A stretch of DNA of 40,324 nucleotides from an uncultured Armatimonadota bacterium (GTDB lineage: Bacteria > Armatimonadota > Fimbriimonadia > Fimbriimonadales > Fimbriimonadaceae). Below, in pieces: positions 9,277-40,324 of the stretch. Under the pieces are notes generated by a model that was not told where the DNA came from, made no database searches, and saw nothing but the letters and a program-made list of their open reading frames with translations. Made by a program: the position numbers and the translations under genes. Location of the stretch: assembly GCA_903899015.1 (NCBI GenBank), contig CAIUHP010000066.1, forward strand, positions 1 to 40,324, written 5' to 3'. The stretch's first letter is position 1, and the number at the start of each line of letters is the position of its first letter.

Positions 9277-9861
9277 ATGGTTCGGGTCCGCGCGATTGCG
9301 ATAGTGGAGTTGATTTGTGTTGTCGTAACCCTTGTCGCGCTTGCCTTCATCGCGGTCACTTGGTTTACAAGGCCCACATTGTCCCACCCGCACTACTGCC
9401 TGTCCAATATCAAGCAGATTTGTTTGGCCGAATTGATCTACTCCGGCGACTATGACGATCGGTTTTCTCAAGCAGAAGGCTGGGGAGATCGAATAAAGGA
9501 ATACGCGAGAACCGACTCAATCATGCATGACACTGAGGGCGTCGAAGCAAACCAATATGGCTATGCTTTTCGGGAGCGAGCAGGCAGCGCTAAACAATCC
9601 GGCTTTCAGCACCCTGAGTCAACAGTTCTCATTTTTGATAGCACCCTTCTTTACAAAAACGCCCACAGTGAACTCTGGTCGGTCCCTCAGCCGGGCCGAC
9701 ACCGGTCCGCAGATGGCTCGGTCGCCGTCGATAATTTAGCTTTTGCCGATGGACATGCTAGAGGATTTAGCACGATTACCCCGTCAGGGCCAAACCAGGT
9801 GGGTGGTTTAGCACAAGCACTTGCAGCCGATGATATGGCTATTCGAGACTACAAAAAATAA
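9277..9861 (+). CDS. Divergent pseudopilin-like protein (paralog 1 of 3)
   Basis: A 194-residue protein with one N-terminal membrane helix and a periplasmic domain like the DUF1559-type pseudopilins of Planctomycetes and Armatimonadota. The start VRVRAIAIVELI aligns with a prepilin signal: A6 at the cleavage position (the canonical pilin at 39519 also has Ala), and E11 at mature position +5, which in type IV pilins neutralises the next N terminus. FTLIE is reduced to IAIVE. Shared features of the trio follow: LSNIKQ, a YSGDYDDRF segment, YGYAFRER, IFDSTL, HSELWS and a final ADGHA. It heads a three-gene run (9277-11111). A filament, adhesin or secretion role is inference. Confidence 0.8.
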   Translation: MVRVRAIAIVELICVVVTLVALAFIAVTWFTRPTLSHPHYCLSNIKQICLAELIYSGDYDDRFSQAEGWGDRIKEYARTDSIMHDTEGVEANQYGYAFRERAGSAKQSGFQHPESTVLIFDSTLLYKNAHSELWSVPQPGRHRSADGSVAVDNLAFADGHARGFSTITPSGPNQVGGLAQALAADDMAIRDYKK

Positions 9862-9914
9862 GACCGGACTCCTAACATGATCATTCTGAACATAGGTTTC
9901 CACACAGAGGTGTT

Positions 9915-10478
9915 ATGAAAAGGCAGAGAGCACTAACGGTTTGGGGGGCCCTTGTGATCGTCCTCGTCGTGCTGGTTTTGGCAGCCATCTTCATGCCCGT
10001 CAGCACAGGTGAACGAGGAGCTGCGCCACGCGCCCGTTGCCTCTCCAATGTGAAGCAGCTAGTCCTATCGGAAATCATGTACTCAAGTGATTTTGATGAT
10101 CGGTTTACAAGGGCGACGGCCTGGATGGATGCGGTCACCCCCTATGAAAAGACCGAGGAAATTAAGCGAGACCCGGAGGGGACGAAGCCAGGGCAGTTTG
10201 GTTATGCTTTTCGAGAGCGAGCTGACGGAGAGAAGTTGACTTCGTTCCTTTCTCCCGCCCAAACGATTCTCATATTTGATAGCAACCTCTTCCAGCGGAG
10301 TGCGCACAGCGAACTTTGGTCGATTCCTCGACCTGGAAGACACAAAGGTGGCAATGTCTGTGGGTTTGTCGACGGCCATGCCAAGGTGCTTGTTTCTCCG
10401 ACCCCAGATCATCCTGAGCTCAATGACACCCTGCAAGAAGCGCTCAAAGCTGACGACAAAGCCACGACGAAACCTTGA
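9915..10478 (+). CDS. Divergent pseudopilin-like protein (paralog 2 of 3)
   Basis: A 187-residue paralog of the gene 53 bp upstream, with the same body motifs: LSNVKQ, YSSDFDDRFT, YGYAFRERA, IFDSNLF, HSELWS and VDGHAK. The N-terminal helix starts KRQRALTVWGAL, so Ala is still at the cleavage position (A6), but the +5 glutamate is replaced by Gly (G11). That change weakens assembly in classical type IV pilins. A ribosome-binding site AGAGG lies close before the ATG. It is likely an operon partner of the flanking paralogs, and probably a membrane-anchored protein even if it is never processed. Confidence 0.8.
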   Translation: MKRQRALTVWGALVIVLVVLVLAAIFMPVSTGERGAAPRARCLSNVKQLVLSEIMYSSDFDDRFTRATAWMDAVTPYEKTEEIKRDPEGTKPGQFGYAFRERADGEKLTSFLSPAQTILIFDSNLFQRSAHSELWSIPRPGRHKGGNVCGFVDGHAKVLVSPTPDHPELNDTLQEALKADDKATTKP

Positions 10479-10484
10479 GCTGTC

Positions 10485-11111
10485 ATGAGCGAATTGTTGA
10501 AGAAGCCATTTACCTTGGGCGCGAGGATCCTCCTTGGCTTAGGCTTGGTGGTCCTCGTCGTCATCATCATTTTTCCTGTGTTTGCGCAGGCTCGCATGGG
10601 AGGTAAACAGCCGTGTTTATCCAATTTGAAGCAGATGTTCGTCGGAACGATGCTCTATGCAGAGGACAACAATGATTGCATGCCCTTAGCCAATTGGATG
10701 GATGGTCTAAGACCGACAGTCAACGAGCAACAGTTTCACGATCGAACGGCATTTAAAAAGCCTGATTATGGTTACGCTTTTCGCGATCGGGTGCTTGGCG
10801 AGCCGTTTAGTTCGGTCGCGACTCCTTCAAAATTCATCCTGATTTTTGACAGTAGCCTTCAGGGGCGAAACCAGCATAGCGAGCTCTGGTCTTTGGCACA
10901 TGGCGGGACCCATGGTCGTTTCCAAGGAGACCCGTCATCCCGTGATTTCGTCGTCAACGCCGATGGACATACCAAAACGCTTTCCATCATTCGGCCAGGG
11001 GCATTAGCTGGTGAGTTGTCGACGTTCCAAAGGACCCTGTTTGAAGACGATGACTCTCAAGAAATACATGGACTTGGTGACAAGTCACTAAAGAGCGCTG
11101 GAGCCAATTGA
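10485..11111 (+). CDS. Divergent pseudopilin-like protein (paralog 3 of 3)
   Basis: A 208-residue third paralog, starting six bases after the previous stop. The start reads LLKKPFTLGARIL: FTL and the downstream FPVFAQAR of the canonical pseudopilin remain, but Pro replaces the cleavage-site residue and the +4/+5 Ile-Glu is Gly-Ala. Processing by a prepilin peptidase therefore looks unlikely, leaving a plain signal anchor. Body motifs are kept: LSNLKQ, YAEDNND, YGYAFRDR, IFDSSL, HSELWS and ADGHTK. The C-terminal tail is longer and acidic (FEDDDSQE). Last gene of the trio. Confidence 0.8.
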   Translation: MSELLKKPFTLGARILLGLGLVVLVVIIIFPVFAQARMGGKQPCLSNLKQMFVGTMLYAEDNNDCMPLANWMDGLRPTVNEQQFHDRTAFKKPDYGYAFRDRVLGEPFSSVATPSKFILIFDSSLQGRNQHSELWSLAHGGTHGRFQGDPSSRDFVVNADGHTKTLSIIRPGALAGELSTFQRTLFEDDDSQEIHGLGDKSLKSAGAN

Positions 11112-16441: not shown

Positions 16442-19400
16442 ATGGAATTAAACGACAAGAATCAGGGGCCGATCGAAGAGGGTCTAGACACTGTTCGCGG
16501 CAAGCTTGCCGGTAAGAACGGGAAGAGCTATTGGCGAAGTCTCGACGAATTGGCAGACACGCCTCAGTTTAACGAGTGGATGGAGGATGAATTCCCCAAC
16601 CGCTCTACGCTGATGCAGATCAATCGTAGAGACCTCTTGAAATTCATGGGTGCCTCGATGGCGCTTGCGGGTCTTACTGGATGCCGCGGCGTTTTCTTGC
16701 CTCAAGACAAGGTTGTGCCTTACGTTAAGGCGCCCGAAGAGTTGGTACCAGGCAAGCCCTTGTACTATGCATCTGCGGTATCCCTTGGCGGCTATGCGAC
16801 GGGAATTCTCGTTGAGCAACGTGAGGGTCGCCCGATCTTCATTCAAGGAAATCCAGATCACCCTGCTTCCTTGGGCGCTCTCGACTCGATCTCGCAAGCT
16901 GAGCTTCTTAACTTCTACGATCCTGATCGAACGGCAAATGTACTTCAGCAGGCTAACCCGGGAACGTACGGCTTAGGAGACGTCAGCACATGGGAGCTCT
17001 TCCTTCAAGCGATTGAGAAAGCGATTGCTGAGGATGCTGCTACCGGCGGCGCCGGTGTCAGGCTCCTAACTGGAGCGATCACTTCTCCAACGCTGACCCA
17101 CACGATTCAGACCTTCCTCAAGAAGTATCCGAACGCAAAGTGGCACGTTTACGAGCCAGCCGGTCGAGCAAACGTATATGCCGGCGCAAAGCTGGCATTT
17201 GGCAAGCCAGTCGAACCGATTTACGACTTCACCAAGGCGAAGGTTGTCGTTTCCCTCGACGGAGATTTCCTCAGCGCATCTGCAAATCCAGGAAGCGTTC
17301 GATACTCCCGCGATTTTGCCAACGGGCGACGTGTCTCCGGCATGAGCGGAACGATGAATCGCCTCTACTCATTCGAGAGCACTCCTGGACTTGTGGGAGC
17401 GATGGCGGACCATCGATGGGCCGTTAAGCCTTCTGATATCTTGGGGTTGGCAATGGCGCTTGCGGCAGCACTTGGAGTTCCTGGCGCAACCCCTACCGGG
17501 AAGGTTGACCAGAAGGCGATCGAAGCGATTGCGAAGGATCTTCAATCGGCACCGGGCGGAGCGCTCGTACTTGCAGGAGATCAATACTCACCTGAGGTTC
17601 ACGCGATTGTTCATGCGATCAACGAAAAGCTTGGAGCTTTCGGGCAGACGGTCAACCATATTGAACCGGTCGTCAGCGTCGTTCAAGATGCGACGAATGA
17701 TCTAAAAGCGCTTGTAGATGATCTCAACGGTGGCAAGGTTAGCACGATGTTGATCGTCGGTTGCAACCCAGTCTACGATGCTCCATCTGACTATAAATTT
17801 GCATCAGCTCTAGCGAAGGCTAAGTTCAAGGCGACGATCGGTCTTTACGACAACGAAACTGCTCAGGCTTGCGACTGGACCGTTCCGACCACTCACACGC
17901 TTGAGGAGTGGGGTGATGCAAAGTCATTCGACGGAACCCTTTCAATTGTCCAACCTCTTATCGCTCCGCTGTTCCAAGGCAAGTCTCTGATCGAGATTTT
18001 CGGCATCCTCGCCGGGAAGCCTGCTGCTGGCTATGACGCAGTCAAGGGATATTGGATGAGCGCAGGCTTAATCAAGGGAGAGTTTGAGAAGGAGTGGAGA
18101 AACGTCGTTCACGACGGACTGCTCAAAGGTTCTGCATCTCCTACACTTAAGCTGGCAACGAACGTTCAGCTTGGCTCACTCTCTGCGCCCAAGGCTCCAA
18201 CCGGACTCGAAATTATTTTCGCGGTTGATCCTGGCATCTACGATGGTCGTTACGCGAACAATGGCTGGCTGCAAGAACTTCCTAAGCCGCTATCCAAGCT
18301 CACTTGGGATAACGTCGCCATGATGAGTCCCAAGACCGCCGCGAAGCTCGGTCTTGAAGACAATAGCATTGTTGATCTGACCTGTAATGGCGAGACGGTT
18401 CGAACCGCAACCTTCATTCAGCCCGGACATCCGGCTGATGCGGTTACGGTTTATTTGGGCTACGGACGAATCCGAGGTGGACTCGTTTGCACCATTCCAA
18501 ATGGAGAAGGCAAACCAGGAGATCACGATGGACGTTCGCCAGGCGGCTTCTTTAACCCGACTTCAAACTTTGATGGTGGCGGATTCAATGCGTATCTGCT
18601 GAGAACCTCCGCAAATACTCACTTCGCAAGTGGAGAGCTCAAAGCAGTTGGCGGGCTAACAACACTCGCATCGACTCAGGGCCACAGCCCAATTGATGGC
18701 GATCACGTTAAGCAATTTGCTACTGACGACCGTGAAGTTATCGTTGAATACGATCTGGACGATTTCAATAAGAATGCGGCCAAATATGTTGAAGAGCGGA
18801 AAGCGAAATCGAAAGAGATCCGCGACAACAACATGTATCCCGACGAAATCTATGTTTACAAGGGTGAACAGTGGGCGATGACGATCGACTTGAATACGTG
18901 CACCGGCTGTAATGCCTGTGTCACGGCATGTCAAGCCGAGAACAACATCCCCGTCGTCGGTAAAGTTCAAGTTGCTCGACACCGCGAAATGCATTGGCTC
19001 CGAATTGACCGCTACTACAAGGGTGATTCAGAGAATCCGCAGGTTGCCTGGCAGCCAGTTGGGTGCGTGCATTGCGAAAAGGCTCCTTGCGAGCCAGTTT
19101 GCCCAGTAGCTGCGACGGTTCACAGTCACGAAGGACTCAACCAGATGGTTTACAACCGCTGCGTAGGTACTCGCTACTGCTCGAACAACTGCCCCTACAA
19201 GGTGCGACGCTTCAACTACCTCAACTACACGGATAACCAAAGACAGTTTGACGTTCGCGTAGATGACAAACCAAGAATTCCTCTTCTCCGAATGCTCAAC
19301 AATCCCGATGTCACGGTCCGAGGCCGTGGAATTATGGAGAAGTGCACGTACTGCATTCAACGCATTAACGAGGCACGCATTGAGTCGAAGAAGGCGGCAC

Positions 19401-30932: not shown

Positions 30933-31151
30933 GTCATCCCACCTCCGTTCGGGGACCCCTTTTATTAAGTTCAGCGCCTAAGCATTTCTCGCCATAGCGG
31001 TTACCTAACTAAAGCATCGGAGCAATGTCCGCAATCCTTAAGCATTCCTGACGCAATCCTCGAATAGAATGTTCTTGGGTTCTAGAGATATTCTTAAAAA
31101 TATCGCAACAGACCAGTGATGACTGGGCAACTTGAACGCGTCAATAACTAT
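30933..31151. promoter_or_regulatory. Divergent promoter region with inverted repeat GATATT-N6-AATATC
   Basis: The gap between divergent genes contains a perfect 6-bp inverted repeat at 31087-31092 and 31099-31104, 47 bases before the chosen start at 31152. It could bind a regulator of the zinc-ribbon/FHA cluster. No -35/-10 pair is clear. Confidence 0.35.
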
Positions 31152-32144
31152 ATGAATTGTCCGAGGTGTGGAAAACAGGTTCCGGCGGGTGCTGCATTTT
31201 GCATGCACTGTGGGGCGCCTATTGCTCCCAGGCCCACGCCCTCGAATAAGACAACAAATATTCCTCGACCGACGCCGAACCCTATGCCGACGGGACCTGT
31301 TGCCACGGCAATGCCAGCCGGGCCTTCCTTAGCCGGCGACTTCCAGCAACAAAAGCGACGAACGACGATGATCGCAATCGTCATCGGTTGTATCGCAGCG
31401 CTTTTTGCGGGCGGGCTTGCTCTCCGATCAATGGGAATTCTCGGTCAAAACGGTAACAGACCCGGCGATTCAAGTCTCACCGCTCAAGGGAAGTTACCGG
31501 ATGACGGCTCGCTCTTAGCTACCGGTAAGCGACCAGATGGGGTGCTGATGGCGCCCGGAAATCGGCAAGGCGCTCAACTTGGCGCCAATGCGGTTGCACC
31601 TATCGACATGCCTGACGATATATACAAGTGGCTGGAACATCTGCGCAAAACGGAAGAAAAGCGACTCGATATCACGATGGGGCAGCTCACTACCGCCTAT
31701 ACCGAAAAAGAAAAATCTCAACTTGCAGGCGGTGTTGACGCCCTAAAAGATTTGCTGAACGGCATCGATGATCCGAATTCAGAGCTTCATTCGCCAACCG
31801 AAAAATTAGCAGGAGTCTTGAAGAAGATGCACGACGACACGATGGATCTTCTCGCATTCTTCAACTCGTATCCCCCGCCACCCGAGTGCGTTCCCATTCG
31901 CGATGCGTATGCTCAATCGCTCAATGAAACCGCAGCTCAAATGGGTGATATCGCTGACCATTTGGCCACCGGCGATGTTGAGAAGTTGATGAAGATGGAA
32001 GGGAAGAGTGCTCAAGGTATCGACTCAGCGGGCGCAAAGACTGACCGATTAGTCGGAGAGATCTGCGACAAGTATAACAAGCGACGTTGGTTTACGATCG
32101 CATCTGACATCAAATCGAGTCCAATATTCGGCTCTGGGTTCTAA
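31152..32144 (+). CDS. Zinc-ribbon single-helix membrane protein
   Basis: A 330-residue protein. It begins with a zinc ribbon, C3-x2-C6 and C17-x2-C20 (MNCPRCG, CMHCG), then a Pro/Thr-rich linker, one membrane helix (about 70-92), and a helical domain with many charged residues thought to lie outside. I chose the ATG at 31152 because the ribbon starts there, as usual in this architecture; GTG or ATG at 31116/31119 would add about a dozen residues. No clear Shine-Dalgarno precedes either. It is the first gene of a close run up to 38372. Function unknown. Confidence 0.75.
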   Translation: MNCPRCGKQVPAGAAFCMHCGAPIAPRPTPSNKTTNIPRPTPNPMPTGPVATAMPAGPSLAGDFQQQKRRTTMIAIVIGCIAALFAGGLALRSMGILGQNGNRPGDSSLTAQGKLPDDGSLLATGKRPDGVLMAPGNRQGAQLGANAVAPIDMPDDIYKWLEHLRKTEEKRLDITMGQLTTAYTEKEKSQLAGGVDALKDLLNGIDDPNSELHSPTEKLAGVLKKMHDDTMDLLAFFNSYPPPPECVPIRDAYAQSLNETAAQMGDIADHLATGDVEKLMKMEGKSAQGIDSAGAKTDRLVGEICDKYNKRRWFTIASDIKSSPIFGSGF

Positions 32145-32703: not shown

Positions 32704-34245
32704 ATGTGGATCTCAACCGCCGAACACAGCAAACAGATTGATAAGCGCGCAAGCGAGGAATTTGGCGTCCCAGCAAAAGTTCTGATGGAACGAGCTGGTT
32801 TGGCAGTCTTCGATGCGGTTAAAGACTTACTGCCCCAAGGCGGGAGGATTACTGTCTTCTGCGGGAAGGGCAACAATGGTGGTGATGGTTTTGTCGTTGC
32901 CCGCTTGGCAGTAGATCATCAATTTAAAGTGGATTGTTTGGTCGCGGCGGAGGAGGATGCCTTGACCCCTGAAGCCCACGAGCAAATGCGAATTGCGCGT
33001 GCTCAGGGTGTTCAGCCAATCTTCTACTCGGACGCGCGATGGATGAGGAAAGCCGAAGGACTGGGTTGTCGCGACCTCATCGTGGACGCTTTGCTCGGAA
33101 CAGGGGCAAGATGCGAGGTTAAGGGGCCGATCCTGGAATCGATCCGACTCATCAATCGAAGTGGTGTGCCGGTAGTTGCCGTCGATGTCCCGAGTGGAAT
33201 TTGCTGCAACACGGGTGAAGAACTCGGAGAGAGCGTATGGGCGCTTCGCACAGTGACTTTCGGGTTACCTAAGCGATTTCTTTTTGAAGGTCTCGGACTA
33301 GAACATGCCGGCTACTGGACCGTTTCTGAGATTGGAATTCCCAACTCTCTCCTTAATGAGCCTACCGAAGCTCGTTTGGTGGACTGCGAATGGGTTTCGA
33401 ATCTCCTGCCGGAGCGCTTACGAGATTGCCACAAGGGTGATAACGGTAGCGTACTGATTGTCGCAGGAAGCCGTAGCATGCGCGGGGCCGCCGCACTTGC
33501 AGCCAAAGCGGCAGTCAGAAGTGGCGCGGGTCTCGTTACCGTCGCTGGCATCCCAGATGTGATGGACAGCGTCTCTGCGATCGTGCCCGAAGTTGTTTTA
33601 CTGCCGCTGCCAGAAATTGATGGCGTGATTGCTCCTGAAGCGGCTGAGATTATCCTGAGTCAACAAAATAAGTATCACAGCGCCCTTTTTGGCCCAGGCA
33701 TGACTCATGAACTTCCGGTGCTTGACTTCTTATCAGCAGTTTGGAAAGGTTGGACCCGTCCGTGCCTGATAGATGCAGACGCCCTGAATGCGGTGAGCAA
33801 AGGAATCAAACTTCCCGAAGCAGAATGTGTTTTGACCCCTCATCCGGGCGAAATGAGCCGACTGCTCCATTGCTCGATCGCTGAAATTCAGGCTGATCGG
33901 TTCCGAACAGTGACCCAAGCGGTTGAAGAGCTCCGTTGCTGTGTCTTATTGAAGGGGCCTTATACGATAGTAGGCGAACCAGGCCAGCCCATGATCGTGA
34001 ATTGCACCGGAAATCCTGGCCTTGCCTCGGCGGGAATGGGTGACGTTTTGGGCGGAGTGATCGCAACCTTGCTCGCTCAAGATTTGCCGACTTATTTTGC
34101 TGCTAGTTGCGGAATGTATTGGCACGGCATGTCGGGAGACCTTTGTGCCGACGAAATTGGACCAATTGGCTACAGTGCGAGCGATGTTGCAGACAAGCTT
34201 GCCAAAGCTCGTTGTAGAATTGTTTCAACGTGTCACCGAAAATAG
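32704..34245 (+). CDS. nnr: Bifunctional NAD(P)HX epimerase/dehydratase (metabolite repair)
   Basis: A 513-residue fusion that repairs hydrated NAD(P)H. The N-terminal YjeF-like epimerase (1 to about 215) has CGKGNNGGDG (53-62) and VDALLGTG. The C-terminal ribokinase-like ADP/ATP-dependent dehydratase (about 235-510) has KGDNGSVLIVAGS, DADALN, LTPHPGEM and GNPGLASAGMGDVLGG (about 435-450) with its catalytic Asp. This is the usual single-chain form. The stop overlaps the start of the next gene by 16 bases. Confidence 0.94.
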   Translation: MWISTAEHSKQIDKRASEEFGVPAKVLMERAGLAVFDAVKDLLPQGGRITVFCGKGNNGGDGFVVARLAVDHQFKVDCLVAAEEDALTPEAHEQMRIARAQGVQPIFYSDARWMRKAEGLGCRDLIVDALLGTGARCEVKGPILESIRLINRSGVPVVAVDVPSGICCNTGEELGESVWALRTVTFGLPKRFLFEGLGLEHAGYWTVSEIGIPNSLLNEPTEARLVDCEWVSNLLPERLRDCHKGDNGSVLIVAGSRSMRGAAALAAKAAVRSGAGLVTVAGIPDVMDSVSAIVPEVVLLPLPEIDGVIAPEAAEIILSQQNKYHSALFGPGMTHELPVLDFLSAVWKGWTRPCLIDADALNAVSKGIKLPEAECVLTPHPGEMSRLLHCSIAEIQADRFRTVTQAVEELRCCVLLKGPYTIVGEPGQPMIVNCTGNPGLASAGMGDVLGGVIATLLAQDLPTYFAASCGMYWHGMSGDLCADEIGPIGYSASDVADKLAKARCRIVSTCHRK

Positions 34246-35498
34246 TTTTATGCACTCTATTTTGTGCCGCTGCCTCTTGGGCTAGCGCGCAAAGTGTCAA
34301 CCTAGGCTTCGCAGACGACGGCGATCGACAAATCTGGATTGCGTCGGCACTACCCAGTCATGCCCCTGGTGATACGGAAGGGGTTCGGACCCTTAAGTCG
34401 GATGCAACCATTCAGACCAAGGATGCCAAGTCGACGGACATGGTTTTCGTGTGGGACCGTAAGTCGGGAAACATCGCAGCCAAATCGGTCAAGGATGCTT
34501 CCACCGGAATATGGGAAGTCAAGCCAACCGATTATCAGTTAGTAGCTCAAGTATCGGTAAACGTTTTGCACAACGGCAAGCCCGTGGCGGCCGCTACCGT
34601 CGACCTCGACGATAGCAAGCACAAAGCTACCGAGCTTTTGGACCCATCTTCTAAAGGAACCGTATCGTTCTTTGGCATCAAATCTGGTTCTGTGAAAGTT
34701 TCGGTTCATTACAAGGTGGCTGGAAAGGAAGCTCCTGCAATTACTCAGCTCATCGAAGTGGCGCTAACCCGGACGGATCCGATTCCAGTCGCAAAGATTG
34801 CCATCGCCGAGGCAGTCGATACCGTTGACGGTACCGCCCCCGCCGCGCCTCAAGGTACGGAATCAAATGCGGCTCCGGCAACCGGAAGTAAACCTGCCGC
34901 AGAAAAACCAGCTGCCAGTGAAGGGATTGGAAGCTTCTTCGCGAAGATCATCATCTACCTATTGGTGCTGGGTGGAATGGGATTTGCCCTGTATTACGCG
35001 ATGATATTTGTCAAGAAGAACCCAGACTCGGTCGGTTCGAAATTGGAACAACTTGGAGTCCAAATTCCAAAACCGGGAGACGATCCGCTCGCCGATCCGA
35101 GTCAGATGCCAGCACCTGCTAGGCCGACTCCGATGCCCGTTCAGAAAATCATCTTGGACGATGCTGCTCCGGATCCAATCCAACCCATCGCGAGTAGTCC
35201 TGTTTATTCGGCCATTGTCGACCCGCGTTTGGTTTCGGAAACCGGAGACGTAATGCCAGTGCCGGAAGGTGAACTCATCGTTGGTCGAGAGATTGGCCTT
35301 GGCTTGAGCCTAGTTGGAGAGAGCACTGTTTCACGAAAACATGCTCAACTATTGCGAAATGGCAACCAAGTTATCGTAAAGGACTTCGGAAGCACGAACG
35401 GTACGTTCGTAAATGGAGTCCAACTACAAGGCGAAAAGCAGTTGCAGAGTGGGGACACTGTCCAATTTGGCTCCGTACGTTTCCGCTTTGAAGGTTAA
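34230..35498 (+). CDS. Exported membrane-anchored protein with C-terminal FHA domain
   Basis: A 422-residue protein. An N-terminal signal peptide (cleavage near ASA|Q, 20/21) is followed by an extracytoplasmic region of about 210 residues, one membrane helix (about 236-258), and a Pro-rich linker. The C-terminal FHA domain (about 349-422) would then be cytoplasmic. The phosphothreonine pocket is canonical: GRE, SRKHAQL and STNGTFVNG. FHA domains bind phosphothreonine peptides, so the protein could carry signals across the membrane. It starts with GTG inside the nnr end; a TAGAAT hexamer lies nine bases before the start. Confidence 0.85.
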   Translation: MSPKIVLCTLFCAAASWASAQSVNLGFADDGDRQIWIASALPSHAPGDTEGVRTLKSDATIQTKDAKSTDMVFVWDRKSGNIAAKSVKDASTGIWEVKPTDYQLVAQVSVNVLHNGKPVAAATVDLDDSKHKATELLDPSSKGTVSFFGIKSGSVKVSVHYKVAGKEAPAITQLIEVALTRTDPIPVAKIAIAEAVDTVDGTAPAAPQGTESNAAPATGSKPAAEKPAASEGIGSFFAKIIIYLLVLGGMGFALYYAMIFVKKNPDSVGSKLEQLGVQIPKPGDDPLADPSQMPAPARPTPMPVQKIILDDAAPDPIQPIASSPVYSAIVDPRLVSETGDVMPVPEGELIVGREIGLGLSLVGESTVSRKHAQLLRNGNQVIVKDFGSTNGTFVNGVQLQGEKQLQSGDTVQFGSVRFRFEG

Positions 35499-35503
35499 TT
35501 ACG

Positions 35504-36952
35504 ATGGGTACCGTCATGCTGAAGTTCCTGGCCGGTGGAGTCGCCGGCCTCTTGGCCTGGATGCTTATGGAGCCATCCGCGCCTAAGGTCCTGGCTACTC
35601 ACGAGTGGCAGACATGGGAAGGAGTCTTCATTCTCGTTTTGGGCTCTTTGATTGGGCTCGCAGTTGGAGGACTTGAGGGCTACACCCGAGGCGGCAAGAT
35701 TCATACATTGCGGGGACTGGGTCTCGGCCTCATCCTCGGAGCCGTTGGTGCAACTCTAGGATCATCGATTGGTTCTTCAGTGGTTGCTTCCACGTTCGGA
35801 TCGGACGTGTTCTTTAACGGCAATGTGGCAGCGAGAATCCCCGCACGAATTGTCGCGATCGTCCCGATTGGAATGTTCCTAGGAGCCGCCATCGGTGGTA
35901 GCTCTCTGACGTTCAAGCGAGCGCTCCAAGGGTTTATCGGAGGAGGACTGGGCGGCGCGATCGCAGGTGCCTCGTTCGATGTGATTAGCACCGTTCTCGG
36001 TCAAGCCATTTTGAGTGCCCGAGGCGAACACTCGGGAGAAGTCGGAACTCCGGCAAGAGCGTTGACCGCCGTCTTGTTAGGTTCGATGATAGGGTTGTTC
36101 ATCGGACTGGTTGAACGATTTGCCCGAAGTGCCTGGCTCCGACTCAATCTTGGTCGGAACGAAGGGAAAGAGTGGTCGATTGATGGAGCTCGTACCTTCA
36201 TCGGTCGAAGTGAGTCGGCAAATGTGCCTCTTTTCGGAGATCCAAATATCGCGCCCATTCACGCTTCCATCGATCGTCATGGAAATCAGTACGTCCTAAA
36301 CGATGGTGGATCCCCTCTTGGCACCTACGTCAACGGTCAGCGAGTCGCCCAAGTTGTTTTGCAAAGCGGTTCCCAAATTCAAATCGGGGGATTTGTGCTG
36401 CAGTTCCTCCTGAAAGGTTCTGCGGCTCCCCAACGGGCACCTGAAGCTTATGTCGGACAGTCTTACCCGCTCGGAGGTGGGCATCCAGGCGCGATGCCAG
36501 CTCATCCTCAGCCGATGCATCAGCCCCAAACGGTTCCGTTCGCTCAACCAACGGCAGCTCAGCCGGTACCTTTTGCGCAACCAACCAGTCAACCAACTCA
36601 AGTGATTTCGCCCGCGGCTTCAATGCCTACGATGGCCTACGGCGCACCCGCTCAGCCAATGCCGACCGGCTTCACTTTGGTGGCCCTGGATGGTCCGCTC
36701 CTCGGACAACGATTTTCAGTTGCAGGCCAAATGGACGTGGGACGAGAATGTCCCGCCATTCCAATGTCATTTGATACCGCCGCCTCACGAAGGCACGCCG
36801 TGTTAGCTCCCGCGTTTAATGGTGTCAACGTTATGGACCCAGGTAGCACGAACGGAACTTTTTTGAATGGTCAGCGCGTCTCCCAAGCGGTGGCTTCACC
36901 AGGTGATATGCTTAAGATCGGCTCAACAACGTTTCGTGTTGAGGCTGCTTAA
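35504..36952 (+). CDS. Glycine-rich polytopic membrane protein with two FHA domains
   Basis: A 482-residue protein with about six glycine-rich membrane segments (residues 5 to about 207, such as LGSLIGLAVGGLEG and GGLGGAIAGASFD), then FHA-A (about 230-310), a Pro/Gln-rich linker (about 315-385) and FHA-B (about 395-482). FHA-B is canonical with GRE, SRRHAVL and STNGTFLNG. FHA-A keeps GRS and GTYVNG but the SRxH block reads APIHASI, so its phosphothreonine-binding serine and arginine are lost. Six bases after the previous FHA gene. I infer a membrane scaffold. Confidence 0.85.
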   Translation: MGTVMLKFLAGGVAGLLAWMLMEPSAPKVLATHEWQTWEGVFILVLGSLIGLAVGGLEGYTRGGKIHTLRGLGLGLILGAVGATLGSSIGSSVVASTFGSDVFFNGNVAARIPARIVAIVPIGMFLGAAIGGSSLTFKRALQGFIGGGLGGAIAGASFDVISTVLGQAILSARGEHSGEVGTPARALTAVLLGSMIGLFIGLVERFARSAWLRLNLGRNEGKEWSIDGARTFIGRSESANVPLFGDPNIAPIHASIDRHGNQYVLNDGGSPLGTYVNGQRVAQVVLQSGSQIQIGGFVLQFLLKGSAAPQRAPEAYVGQSYPLGGGHPGAMPAHPQPMHQPQTVPFAQPTAAQPVPFAQPTSQPTQVISPAASMPTMAYGAPAQPMPTGFTLVALDGPLLGQRFSVAGQMDVGRECPAIPMSFDTAASRRHAVLAPAFNGVNVMDPGSTNGTFLNGQRVSQAVASPGDMLKIGSTTFRVEAA

Positions 36953-36980
36953 ATTAGTTTTTTAAAACGAACAGGCAAAG

Positions 36981-38372
36981 ATGGATCAAACCCAAAGAAT
37001 CGACCCTAACCGAACAATGCTGACGGGAGCACCCGGTCTGCATGACCCTTTGAAGACTCAGGCCATGGGAGCCTTTGATCCATTGAAGACCACTGCGATG
37101 GCACCCATGCTTGATAACGGCAAGGGGCTTTCTGCCGAAGTCATTCCGGGCCGCGAAGCAACCATGGCAAACGGACCTGCTCGCGAGCAATTCCTCGTCG
37201 AGTTTACGGGAGCGGGAATGCCCTTGATGGGTGGAGTAGGCGGAGGAATGGGGGGAAGTACCCGGACACCTCTTAACCTATGCTTGGTAATTGACCGTTC
37301 GGGTTCGATGGAAGGACCACCACTCGATTACGTCAAGCAGGCGTGCGGCTTTGTTGTAGACATGCTGGGGCCTAACGATGTACTGAGTATTGTCACCTTT
37401 GAGGAGACGGTTGATGTCCTCATGCCTCCTCAGCGGGTGACTAATAAACAACCCATCAAAGACGGTATTCAGCGTCTGATGCCGGGCAATACGACCAACC
37501 TATATGACGGCTTAGCCCTTGCTGCTCAACAAGTTGGGGGAATCACCGATCCGGGCCGCGCAACTCGTCTCGTTGTTTTGACGGACGGAGATCCTACCGC
37601 TGGAATCAAGGATTTTTCGGCTCTCGTTGCGCACGCTGGCGAGATCAAGCAGCGGGGAATCACCTGTACCTTCTTAGGATTTGGACCCGACTACAACGAA
37701 GAGCTTCTCGCGTCGATGGCCAAGCGGGCCGGTGGTAACTACTACTACATTCCTCGCCCCGAACTCATTCCAGAGGTCTTCCGCCTTGAGCTTGATAAGT
37801 TGATGACGAGCGTCGCCCGCAACCTCAAGTTAGAAATGAAGATTGCCCGGTGGGTCACGCTACGCTCTCCTCAGGCGTCACCCAATGGAGAAGTGAGCCT
37901 TCCGCTCGCCGATCTTGAACGCGGAGCGAGCATCCAGCAGGTCTTTGATTTTGAATTTACGAACCATCCCTTGGGGCACTACCGAGTTGCTCACGGCAAG
38001 CTGACCTACGATGATCTGGTCAGCGGTAAGAACGAGATCATTGACATCGATTTTGTCATTGAGTTCACGGCAGACTCGGCACGCTATTCGGTCGCTCAGA
38101 GCCCAAGAGTTCAAGGTGCTGCTCAGGTGGCGCTGGCATCGAAGGCAGTGGAGAAAACCATTTTGGGTATGAAGACCGGAATGCTGACCCAGATGGGGGC
38201 CATCCAAGAGCTGCAAAAGACCCAAATGCTCCTTGTACAAGAGGGAAGAACCATGGAAGCTCAAGAAGTAACCATGGCCCTGAGAGCCATCCAAAGTGGA
38301 GACAAGGGCCAAGCCGAAAAGACGCTTATGGGCACAATGGTCCATCTGGATCAAGGCAAAAAGCAGCAGTAA
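36981..38372 (+). CDS. Von Willebrand factor A domain protein with N-terminal threonine repeats
   Basis: A 463-residue soluble protein with no signal peptide. The vWA domain (about 97-275) has a complete MIDAS: DRSGSM (D105, S107, S109), the threonine of NTTNLYDG, and LTDGD. A C-terminal beta and helical region follows. The first 44 residues hold three DP-x-(K/R)-T repeats: DPNRT (8-12), DPLKT (22-26) and DPLKT (33-37), each with Met, Leu or Thr at the +3 position after the threonine. Such basic-residue-then-Thr sites suit a Ser/Thr kinase and the neighbouring FHA domains. It ends the cluster and starts 28 bp after the double-FHA gene. Confidence 0.85.
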   Translation: MDQTQRIDPNRTMLTGAPGLHDPLKTQAMGAFDPLKTTAMAPMLDNGKGLSAEVIPGREATMANGPAREQFLVEFTGAGMPLMGGVGGGMGGSTRTPLNLCLVIDRSGSMEGPPLDYVKQACGFVVDMLGPNDVLSIVTFEETVDVLMPPQRVTNKQPIKDGIQRLMPGNTTNLYDGLALAAQQVGGITDPGRATRLVVLTDGDPTAGIKDFSALVAHAGEIKQRGITCTFLGFGPDYNEELLASMAKRAGGNYYYIPRPELIPEVFRLELDKLMTSVARNLKLEMKIARWVTLRSPQASPNGEVSLPLADLERGASIQQVFDFEFTNHPLGHYRVAHGKLTYDDLVSGKNEIIDIDFVIEFTADSARYSVAQSPRVQGAAQVALASKAVEKTILGMKTGMLTQMGAIQELQKTQMLLVQEGRTMEAQEVTMALRAIQSGDKGQAEKTLMGTMVHLDQGKKQQ

Positions 38373-39518: not shown

Positions 39519-40324
39519 ATGCAACGAAAAGCATTTACATTAATTGAGTTATTGGTAGTTATCGCCATCATCGCGATTTTGGCCGCGATCCTATTCCCTG
39601 TCTTTGCGCAAGCAAAGCTTGCTGCAAAGAAGACTTCTGCGTTGAGTAACGTCAAGCAGGTCGGTCTTGGCATCATGATGTACAACAATGACAACGATGG
39701 CGAATACGACATCGGATGCCCTAACCAGTGGTGGTACCCAGGTAGCGCAACTCAGCCTGGCGGCGCTTGGTCTTGGGACATTGCTCCTTACCTAAAGAAC
39801 GCTGGCATTTTGACGGAGTCTACTGATACTCCTGGCAAGCAGTCTTGGCAGACTTGGTTTGGTAGCAATACGGTTGAAGTGAGCTTTGCTTCCAATGGTT
39901 ATATGGCTTGGAACAACGCCGACTCTCATTGGGACGTCTTCGGCTTGATGGGTATGAACCAGGGTGCGACAGCATCGGGTGGCCCAGGTTGGATGGGTGT
40001 TGACCGCCGCAACGAGAGCGACTGCACTCAGCCAGCTGCGACCGTTCTCCTTGCCAACCGCAAGGGTGGCGATGATATCTTCGGCCAAGGCGACATGGTC
40101 TCGGGTGTTTCTTGGTGGGATTACAGCGGCGCTGGTTTGATTCCCAACGGTAAGGCAGCAAATAACAGCACAACTGCTTATAATGCTCCTCATGGCAACT
40201 TCGGTGGCTCATGGTTGGTTAACGCAGACGTCCGCAATGGTGCCATCAGCACGAACTTTGCTGGTCAAGCTCCAATCGTGTTTGCCGACGGCCATGCCAA
40301 GTCGATGAATCCGATTCAAACGAA
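39519..40324 (+). CDS. Prepilin-type pseudopilin with DUF1559-like domain (partial, runs off the edge)
   Basis: At least 268 residues, open at the right edge of the window. A canonical prepilin signal starts at once: MQRK then [16 protein letters not shown], with cleavage after A5 and Glu at +5, then [18 protein letters not shown] and, later, a sugar- or cell-surface-type beta domain rich in Trp, Gly and Asn, ending in [14 protein letters not shown] lies eight bases before the ATG. It is the reference for judging the degenerate paralogs at 9277-11111. Its function (filament, secretion or surface protein) cannot be settled from the sequence. Confidence 0.9.

Follow-up and report, generated by a model that had tools for sequence, protein, structure and literature searches.

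A candidate phosphothreonine switch of FHA and von Willebrand A proteins with repeated threonine tails in Armatimonadota

In Sulfolobus acidocaldarius, the FHA protein ArnA and the von Willebrand A (vWA) protein ArnB form a regulatory module of the archaellum (PMC6509490, PMC12852372; PDB 8S05, 5A8I, 5A8J). Kinases mark threonines in the C-terminal helix bundle of ArnB, and the FHA domain of ArnA then binds tightly (PMC6509490, PMC12852372). In the threonine phosphorylation pathway of type VI secretion, PpkA-Fha-PppA, the Fha protein binds phosphorylated Thr14 of TssL (PMC3953482). The locus compared with these systems here is a run of FHA and vWA genes in an uncultured bacterium of the family Fimbriimonadaceae, order Fimbriimonadales, phylum Armatimonadota (assembly GCA_903899015.1); the window is the whole stretch of DNA analysed, 40,324 nucleotides of contig CAIUHP010000066.1. 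Armatimonadota are bacteria of soil and water. In the window, FHA1, FHA2 and the vWA gene follow sprT and nnrD/E and lie head to tail as a tight run.

The reading favoured here, at a probability of roughly three in four, is a phosphothreonine switch controlled by a kinase and a PP2C phosphatase. The tails of the vWA protein and of a third FHA protein, FHA3, encoded elsewhere in the genome, would be marked and then read by FHA1, by the second FHA domain of FHA2 (FHA2b) and by FHA3. The observed basis is gene content and linkage, conservation of the tails, sites that hold threonine only, intact binding pockets, the ArnB fold and the co-loss of the module in one genus; phosphorylation, the pairing of FHA domains with tails, recruitment to the membrane and a signal are what we infer. 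The three genes in the window are as follows.

34230..35498, forward strand: FHA1, with a signal peptide, an extracytoplasmic beta domain, one transmembrane segment, a linker and a cytosolic FHA domain
35504..36952, forward strand: FHA2, with a glycine-rich polytopic membrane region followed by two FHA domains
36981..38372, forward strand: the vWA gene, of ArnB-type architecture with a disordered N-terminal tail

Gaps of 5 bp (FHA1 to FHA2) and 28 bp (FHA2 to the vWA gene) separate them. By Pfam, FHA1 has a single FHA domain and FHA2 a pair, and the third gene encodes a VWA domain.

The tail of the vWA protein carries an array of threonines.

36981..37112, forward strand: disordered N-terminal tail of the vWA protein, residues 1-44, with the threonine array
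37002..37016, forward strand: repeat 1, DPNRT, residues 8-12 (Thr12; Thr15 at +3)
37044..37058, forward strand: repeat 2, DPLKT, residues 22-26 (Thr26; Met29 at +3)
37077..37091, forward strand: repeat 3, DPLKT, residues 33-37 (Thr37; Met40 at +3)

The original prediction, made from the DNA letters alone, had placed three DP-x-(K/R)-T repeats at exactly these residues, and they exceed chance: in 100,000 shuffles the tail never reached three DPx[RK]T, and elsewhere in the open frames of the window the pattern occurs once, at 16919, in an unrelated gene. Of the residues it named at +3 from the threonine (Met, Leu or Thr), Thr and Met are borne out, while Leu is misplaced and sits at +2 of Thr12. 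Repeats 2 and 3 differ in three of their five codons; every change is silent, so it is the peptide that has been kept.

The array is conserved well beyond this genome. In the 64 non-redundant vWA tails of the named-genome set, the [RK]T sites number 199, from two to four per tail, against a mean of 29.8 and a maximum of 45 when the tails are shuffled, counts that ignore the shared ancestry of the tails. Their consensus reads D-P-N-R-T-Q-A-M. In 37 aligned vWA homologues Thr26 never varies and Thr37 hardly does, while the spacing is variable. The residue that follows DPx[RK] is threonine 183 times and serine never in the vWA tails (uncorrected for ancestry); in FHA3 tails the counts are 63 and zero. 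FHA domains prefer phosphothreonine over phosphoserine (PMC3953482, PMC6509490), and because of this selectivity a position open to threonine only is what reading by an FHA domain would impose. A search of the organism's own genome with the tail matches the vWA protein and FHA3 only. At the DNA level, the pattern DPN[RK]T gives 12 matches in the genome against 4 for a reversed control, which is uninformative beyond the vWA and FHA3 tails.

The membrane proteins encoded beside the vWA gene carry the predicted readers.

35280..35471, forward strand: FHA domain of FHA1, with an intact phosphothreonine pocket (R353, S368, H371, N390)
36197..36388, forward strand: FHA2a, a degenerate FHA domain (residues 232-295), pocket Ser replaced by Ala and Asn by Leu
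36740..36922, forward strand: FHA2b, an FHA domain with an intact phosphothreonine pocket

The canonical pocket motifs that had been reported for the two adjacent genes, SRKHAQL/STNGTF in FHA1 and SRRHAVL/STNGTF in FHA2, are present as described, and Pfam agrees. Four of the module's five FHA domains keep the pocket Arg, Ser, His and Asn without exception: FHA1 (69/69 sequences), FHA2b (73/73), FHA3a (59 sequences) and FHA3b (59). FHA2a, which the original prediction did not notice, fails this comparison, with the pocket Ser in 4 of 73 orthologues and the Asn position hydrophobic or absent. Since almost no orthologue retains the pocket, the domain is probably structural, a conserved pseudo-reader as judged from its residues. 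According to AlphaFold and the sequence, FHA1 comprises an extracytoplasmic beta domain (about residues 22-191), a transmembrane segment (236-263), a disordered linker and the C-terminal cytosolic FHA domain; its signal peptide is present in orthologues too. In FHA2, several hydrophobic glycine-rich segments precede the FHA domains. A fold search with the FHA1 model covered its FHA domain only. Among the structures nearest to that domain are GarA and the FHA domain of Bdellovibrio DgcB bound to its own phosphorylated N-terminal peptide.

The vWA protein has 463 residues: the disordered N-terminal tail, a vWA domain with a metal-ion-dependent adhesion site (MIDAS), a beta-sandwich and a C-terminal four-helix bundle. 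In its AlphaFold model the predicted local distance difference test (pLDDT) is below 50 for nearly all of residues 1-44, and the remainder is well predicted bar one loop. No signal or membrane segment was found in the protein, which is therefore assigned to the cytosol rather than the envelope. The original description of an envelope module thus suits FHA1, FHA2 and the kinase and does not suit the vWA protein. The top structural match of the model is 8s05_A, ArnB in the ArnA-ArnB complex (Z 33.0, root-mean-square deviation 3.9, 370 aligned residues); a Catenulispora vWA protein, 4FX5, ties with it (Z 32.4), and vWA2, a paralogue of ArnB, follows (Z 29.4). A profile search agrees with the fold (E 1e-18 over residues 93-437).

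38103..38354, forward strand: four-helix bundle of the vWA protein, in which two [RK]T[ILV][MLI]G motifs are conserved

Of the two motif threonines, Thr393 (38157-38159) is invariant and Thr448 (38322-38324) nearly so; by analogy with ArnB, which is phosphorylated in this region, both are candidate phosphosites only.

No kinase or phosphatase gene lies in the window, as had been stated, and orthologues of both are encoded elsewhere in the genome. FHA3, likewise missed by the original prediction, stands beside a PP2C gene.

L099:4328-6141 (contig C99 of the same genome), both genes on the same strand: FHA3 and PP2C, FHA3 bearing the same repeat tail; unlinked to the window

FHA3 consists of the repeat tail, a zinc ribbon recognised by its CxxC...CxxC pattern and a pair of FHA domains, and the PP2C gene is next downstream; in one copy of FHA3 (L082), the Pfam zinc-ribbon match is below cut-off. 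The FHA3 proteins of some distant relatives (L214, L215, L239, L248) have a DnaJ-like N-terminal domain ahead of the zinc ribbon. The kinases found in the operons of relatives match one of the genome's own kinases best, P0008 on contig C71, with scores of 327 and 299 bits where the second-best own kinase reaches 81, which makes it by sequence a clear orthologue of the operon kinase. It is of Hanks type, with a transmembrane segment after the N-terminal kinase domain. Because FHA3-PP2C and the kinase lie on other contigs, the operon is in three pieces in Fimbriimonadaceae, and the window holds one of them. Two further loci of the genome (L098 on C51, L228 on C103) are of TerY-P type and combine short vWA and kinase genes with FHA/helicase or PP2C genes. 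As sources of the missing kinase and phosphatase they were rejected, since C71 fits the operon kinases far better and the PP2C gene beside FHA3 is of the operon type.

In other Armatimonadota the pieces are joined. Of 61 relatives, 60 have a homologue of the vWA protein, and at E 1e-30 so do 171 of 251 Armatimonadota genomes; FHA3 orthologues, with the tail, occur in all 61 relatives, mostly adjoining PP2C where the locus is long enough, and the kinase orthologue in 59. Two other families of the order keep FHA1-FHA2-vWA-FHA3-PP2C together. Among 19 Armatimonadota loci outside the order, some of which end at contig ends, vWA-FHA3 is found in 19, PP2C in 16 and the kinase in 13, and seven have the full run nnrD-FHA1-FHA2-vWA-FHA3-PP2C-kinase. 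Co-conservation of the three window genes with the repeat, proposed originally as a check, thus extends to an FHA1-FHA2-vWA-FHA3-PP2C-kinase run, and no vWA homologue without repeats beside the FHA genes was found in the loci read: vWA tails encoded next to FHA1-FHA2 keep their threonine sites. Extra genes stand within the operon of some relatives (L208:10437-11201, L215:4486-5217), encoding an exported protein and an RDD-like membrane protein. In one reduced genus (two genomes, 1.5 Mb, 97% complete), the vWA protein, any FHA domain and the kinase orthologue are all absent, a co-loss of the module.

The model put forward originally, in which a kinase marks the vWA tail and the tail docks on the FHA proteins, is supported by these comparisons, with phosphorylation and docking as its predicted steps. 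In the fuller form proposed here, the membrane Hanks kinase orthologous to that on C71 would act on the vWA and FHA3 tails and phosphorylate the threonines of their DPNRTQAM-type repeats. The phosphorylated sites would be gripped by the intact FHA domains of membrane-bound FHA1 and FHA2 and of FHA3, with recruitment of the vWA/FHA3 pair to the membrane scaling with how many marks are present, and the PP2C encoded beside FHA3 would erase them. The extracytoplasmic domain of FHA1 could couple this assembly to an outside signal.

Several observations weigh against the proposed switch. Besides the shared ancestry that the shuffle counts ignore, the residue at +3 is inconstant: about half of the vWA sites have Met there, while in FHA3 sites Gly takes this position and Met comes one residue earlier, at +2. 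In three distant vWA proteins (L215, L240, L248) the repeats are weak or missing. Linkage also has its exceptions: neither the kinase gene nor FHA3-PP2C is linked to the window genes in the genome studied, and in one family of the order (f2) FHA1-FHA2 lie apart from the vWA gene, although the two still stand together at another place in each of four genomes inspected; one f2 FHA3 examined is without DPxRT repeats. Finally, the phosphosites of ArnB lie in the helix bundle and not in an N-terminal tail (PMC12852372).

The alternatives partly overlap with the proposed switch. The strongest, though short of an even chance, is that an ArnA-ArnB-like pair comes first: soluble FHA3, the counterpart of ArnA, would read the vWA tail, FHA1 and FHA2 would read other proteins or the FHA3 tail, and membrane docking of the vWA protein would be indirect. 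The vWA-FHA3 pair is indeed the tightest outside the order, present at every one of the 19 loci, FHA3 joins a zinc ribbon to FHA domains like ArnA, which binds ArnB (PMC12852372), and family f2 keeps the vWA gene without adjacent FHA1-FHA2. In families f1 and f5 of the Fimbriimonadales, however, the adjacency that survived is FHA1-FHA2-vWA and not vWA-FHA3.

A second alternative, judged unlikely, takes its precedents from GarA and the DgcB FHA domain, the solved structures among the FHA neighbours. The phosphorylated FHA3 tail would fold onto the protein's own FHA domains and close them, and the vWA tail would compete, so that a complex opens and closes with no recruitment to the membrane. Tail and FHA domains do share one chain in FHA3, but self-binding leaves the intact pockets of FHA1 and FHA2b, encoded in the same operon, unexplained.

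More improbable still is that the repeats act unphosphorylated, as linear motifs for kinase or membrane docking or as a spacer, with the FHA genes adjacent for another reason. The D, P, R and Q of the motif are as conserved as its T, which fits such a role; serine, however, never replaces the threonine, just two proteins bear the tail, each with FHA, PP2C and kinase genes beside its own, and the whole module was lost together in one genus. A chance low-complexity extension, to which the disorder of the tail might point, has a negligible probability, refuted by the shuffles and by conservation across the order and most of the loci read in the phylum.

The neighbouring genes add context to the switch proposed here.

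32704..34245, forward strand: nnrD/E, a bifunctional NAD(P)HX repair enzyme, adjoining FHA1 upstream, in the same order in most relatives

The start of FHA1 overlaps the stop of nnrD/E by 16 bp, and the two are probably co-transcribed; nnrD/E is a conserved neighbour outside the signalling part. A scan for promoters and terminators gave a result at chance level. Upstream of sprT, 31116-32144 encodes a zinc-ribbon membrane protein that keeps this position in close relatives; its Thr/Pro-rich linker (KTTNI, VATAMP) is weakly like the motif of the vWA tail. Farther away, 9277-11111 and 39519-40322 hold several mutually similar prepilin-like genes with short periplasmic-domain ends (FADGHAK-type). 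A role as a defence system is unsupported, a padloc scan having given generic kinase and phosphatase matches only.

The six-gene switch seems to be undescribed in bacteria. Open-access literature on Fimbriimonas or Armatimonadetes with FHA held nothing on the module (subscription papers lie outside this coverage), and literature searches on vWA with FHA and PP2C, and on TerY, returned nothing. The search for the complete module covered, among bacterial phyla, the Armatimonadota. Within this little-studied phylum, most of which retains it, the module is a putative phosphothreonine system whose writer, eraser, readers and sites are predicted at the level of residues. A broader and distinctly tentative proposal is that ArnA-ArnB-type vWA/FHA phospho-switches are ancient and common to bacteria and archaea. 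The Armatimonadota form would be multivalent: the number of phosphorylated DPNRTQAM sites on two proteins would set how strongly a Sec23/24-like vWA scaffold gathers beneath FHA receptors in the membrane, and a signal that FHA1 senses outside would in this way be linked to the cell interior.

Several known systems share parts of this arrangement. YfbK-like vWA proteins on plasmids of cyanobacteria and Deinococcus are sequence relatives over the folded part. The plasmid-borne examples read are tail-less and adjoin a MerR-family gene, with no annotated FHA gene nearby, so the vWA fold alone does not imply the function of the module. TerY-P triads likewise unite vWA, PP2C and kinase genes in one locus. 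Their TerY-like vWA proteins are short, single-domain and tail-less and accompany other kinases, which sets them apart from the module. In Actinobacteria, GarA/OdhI and FhaA/FhaB with PknA/B-PstP combine an FHA protein, a phosphorylated N-terminal tail and control by a kinase and a PP2C phosphatase. Unlike the module, GarA controls metabolic enzymes, has one FHA domain and acts without a vWA partner. GarA and OdhI structures are among the FHA structure and profile matches. The NCBIfam FhaB and OdhI equivalogs match the FHA domain only, below cut-off (NF041660, 39/73 bits against 200; NF049868, 47/82 against 125).

The type VI secretion pathway offers the likeness of a kinase that marks a threonine close to a partner's N-terminus, which an FHA protein then binds, as is predicted here. 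In the Armatimonadota module, by contrast, the marked protein is soluble, two readers are membrane-bound and the sites are repeated rather than single. No type VI secretion component genes were noticed at the loci read, the genome not having been searched for Tss genes, and the NCBIfam TagH model matches the FHA part only, far below cut-off.

The ArnA-ArnB module is alike in more respects. Both systems have a protein composed of a vWA domain, a beta-sandwich and a four-helix bundle, a partner with a zinc finger and FHA (here FHA3, whose sequence match to ArnA is weak, E 5e-6, over the FHA part only), and one or more Hanks kinases with a phosphatase; the FHA domain reads the phosphothreonine of the vWA protein in ArnA-ArnB and is predicted to do so here. 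The genes of this pair are adjacent, or nearly so, at all 19 loci outside the order, while in the genome studied they are split between C66 and C99. The bacterial module differs in its N-terminal tail of repeated threonines, in a partner with two FHA domains and the same tail as the vWA protein, in two additional membrane FHA proteins, in a kinase with a transmembrane segment after its N-terminal kinase domain, and in a PP2C rather than PP2A phosphatase; it is bacterial and has no tie to archaella. On account of its different type of phosphatase, and with binding as a prediction only, the module is classed not as a member of the ArnA-ArnB system but as working alike. As a bacterial counterpart of that archaeal switch, it makes the sharing of vWA/FHA phospho-switches across domains testable, and its repeated tails provide a natural case for multivalent phosphothreonine reading.

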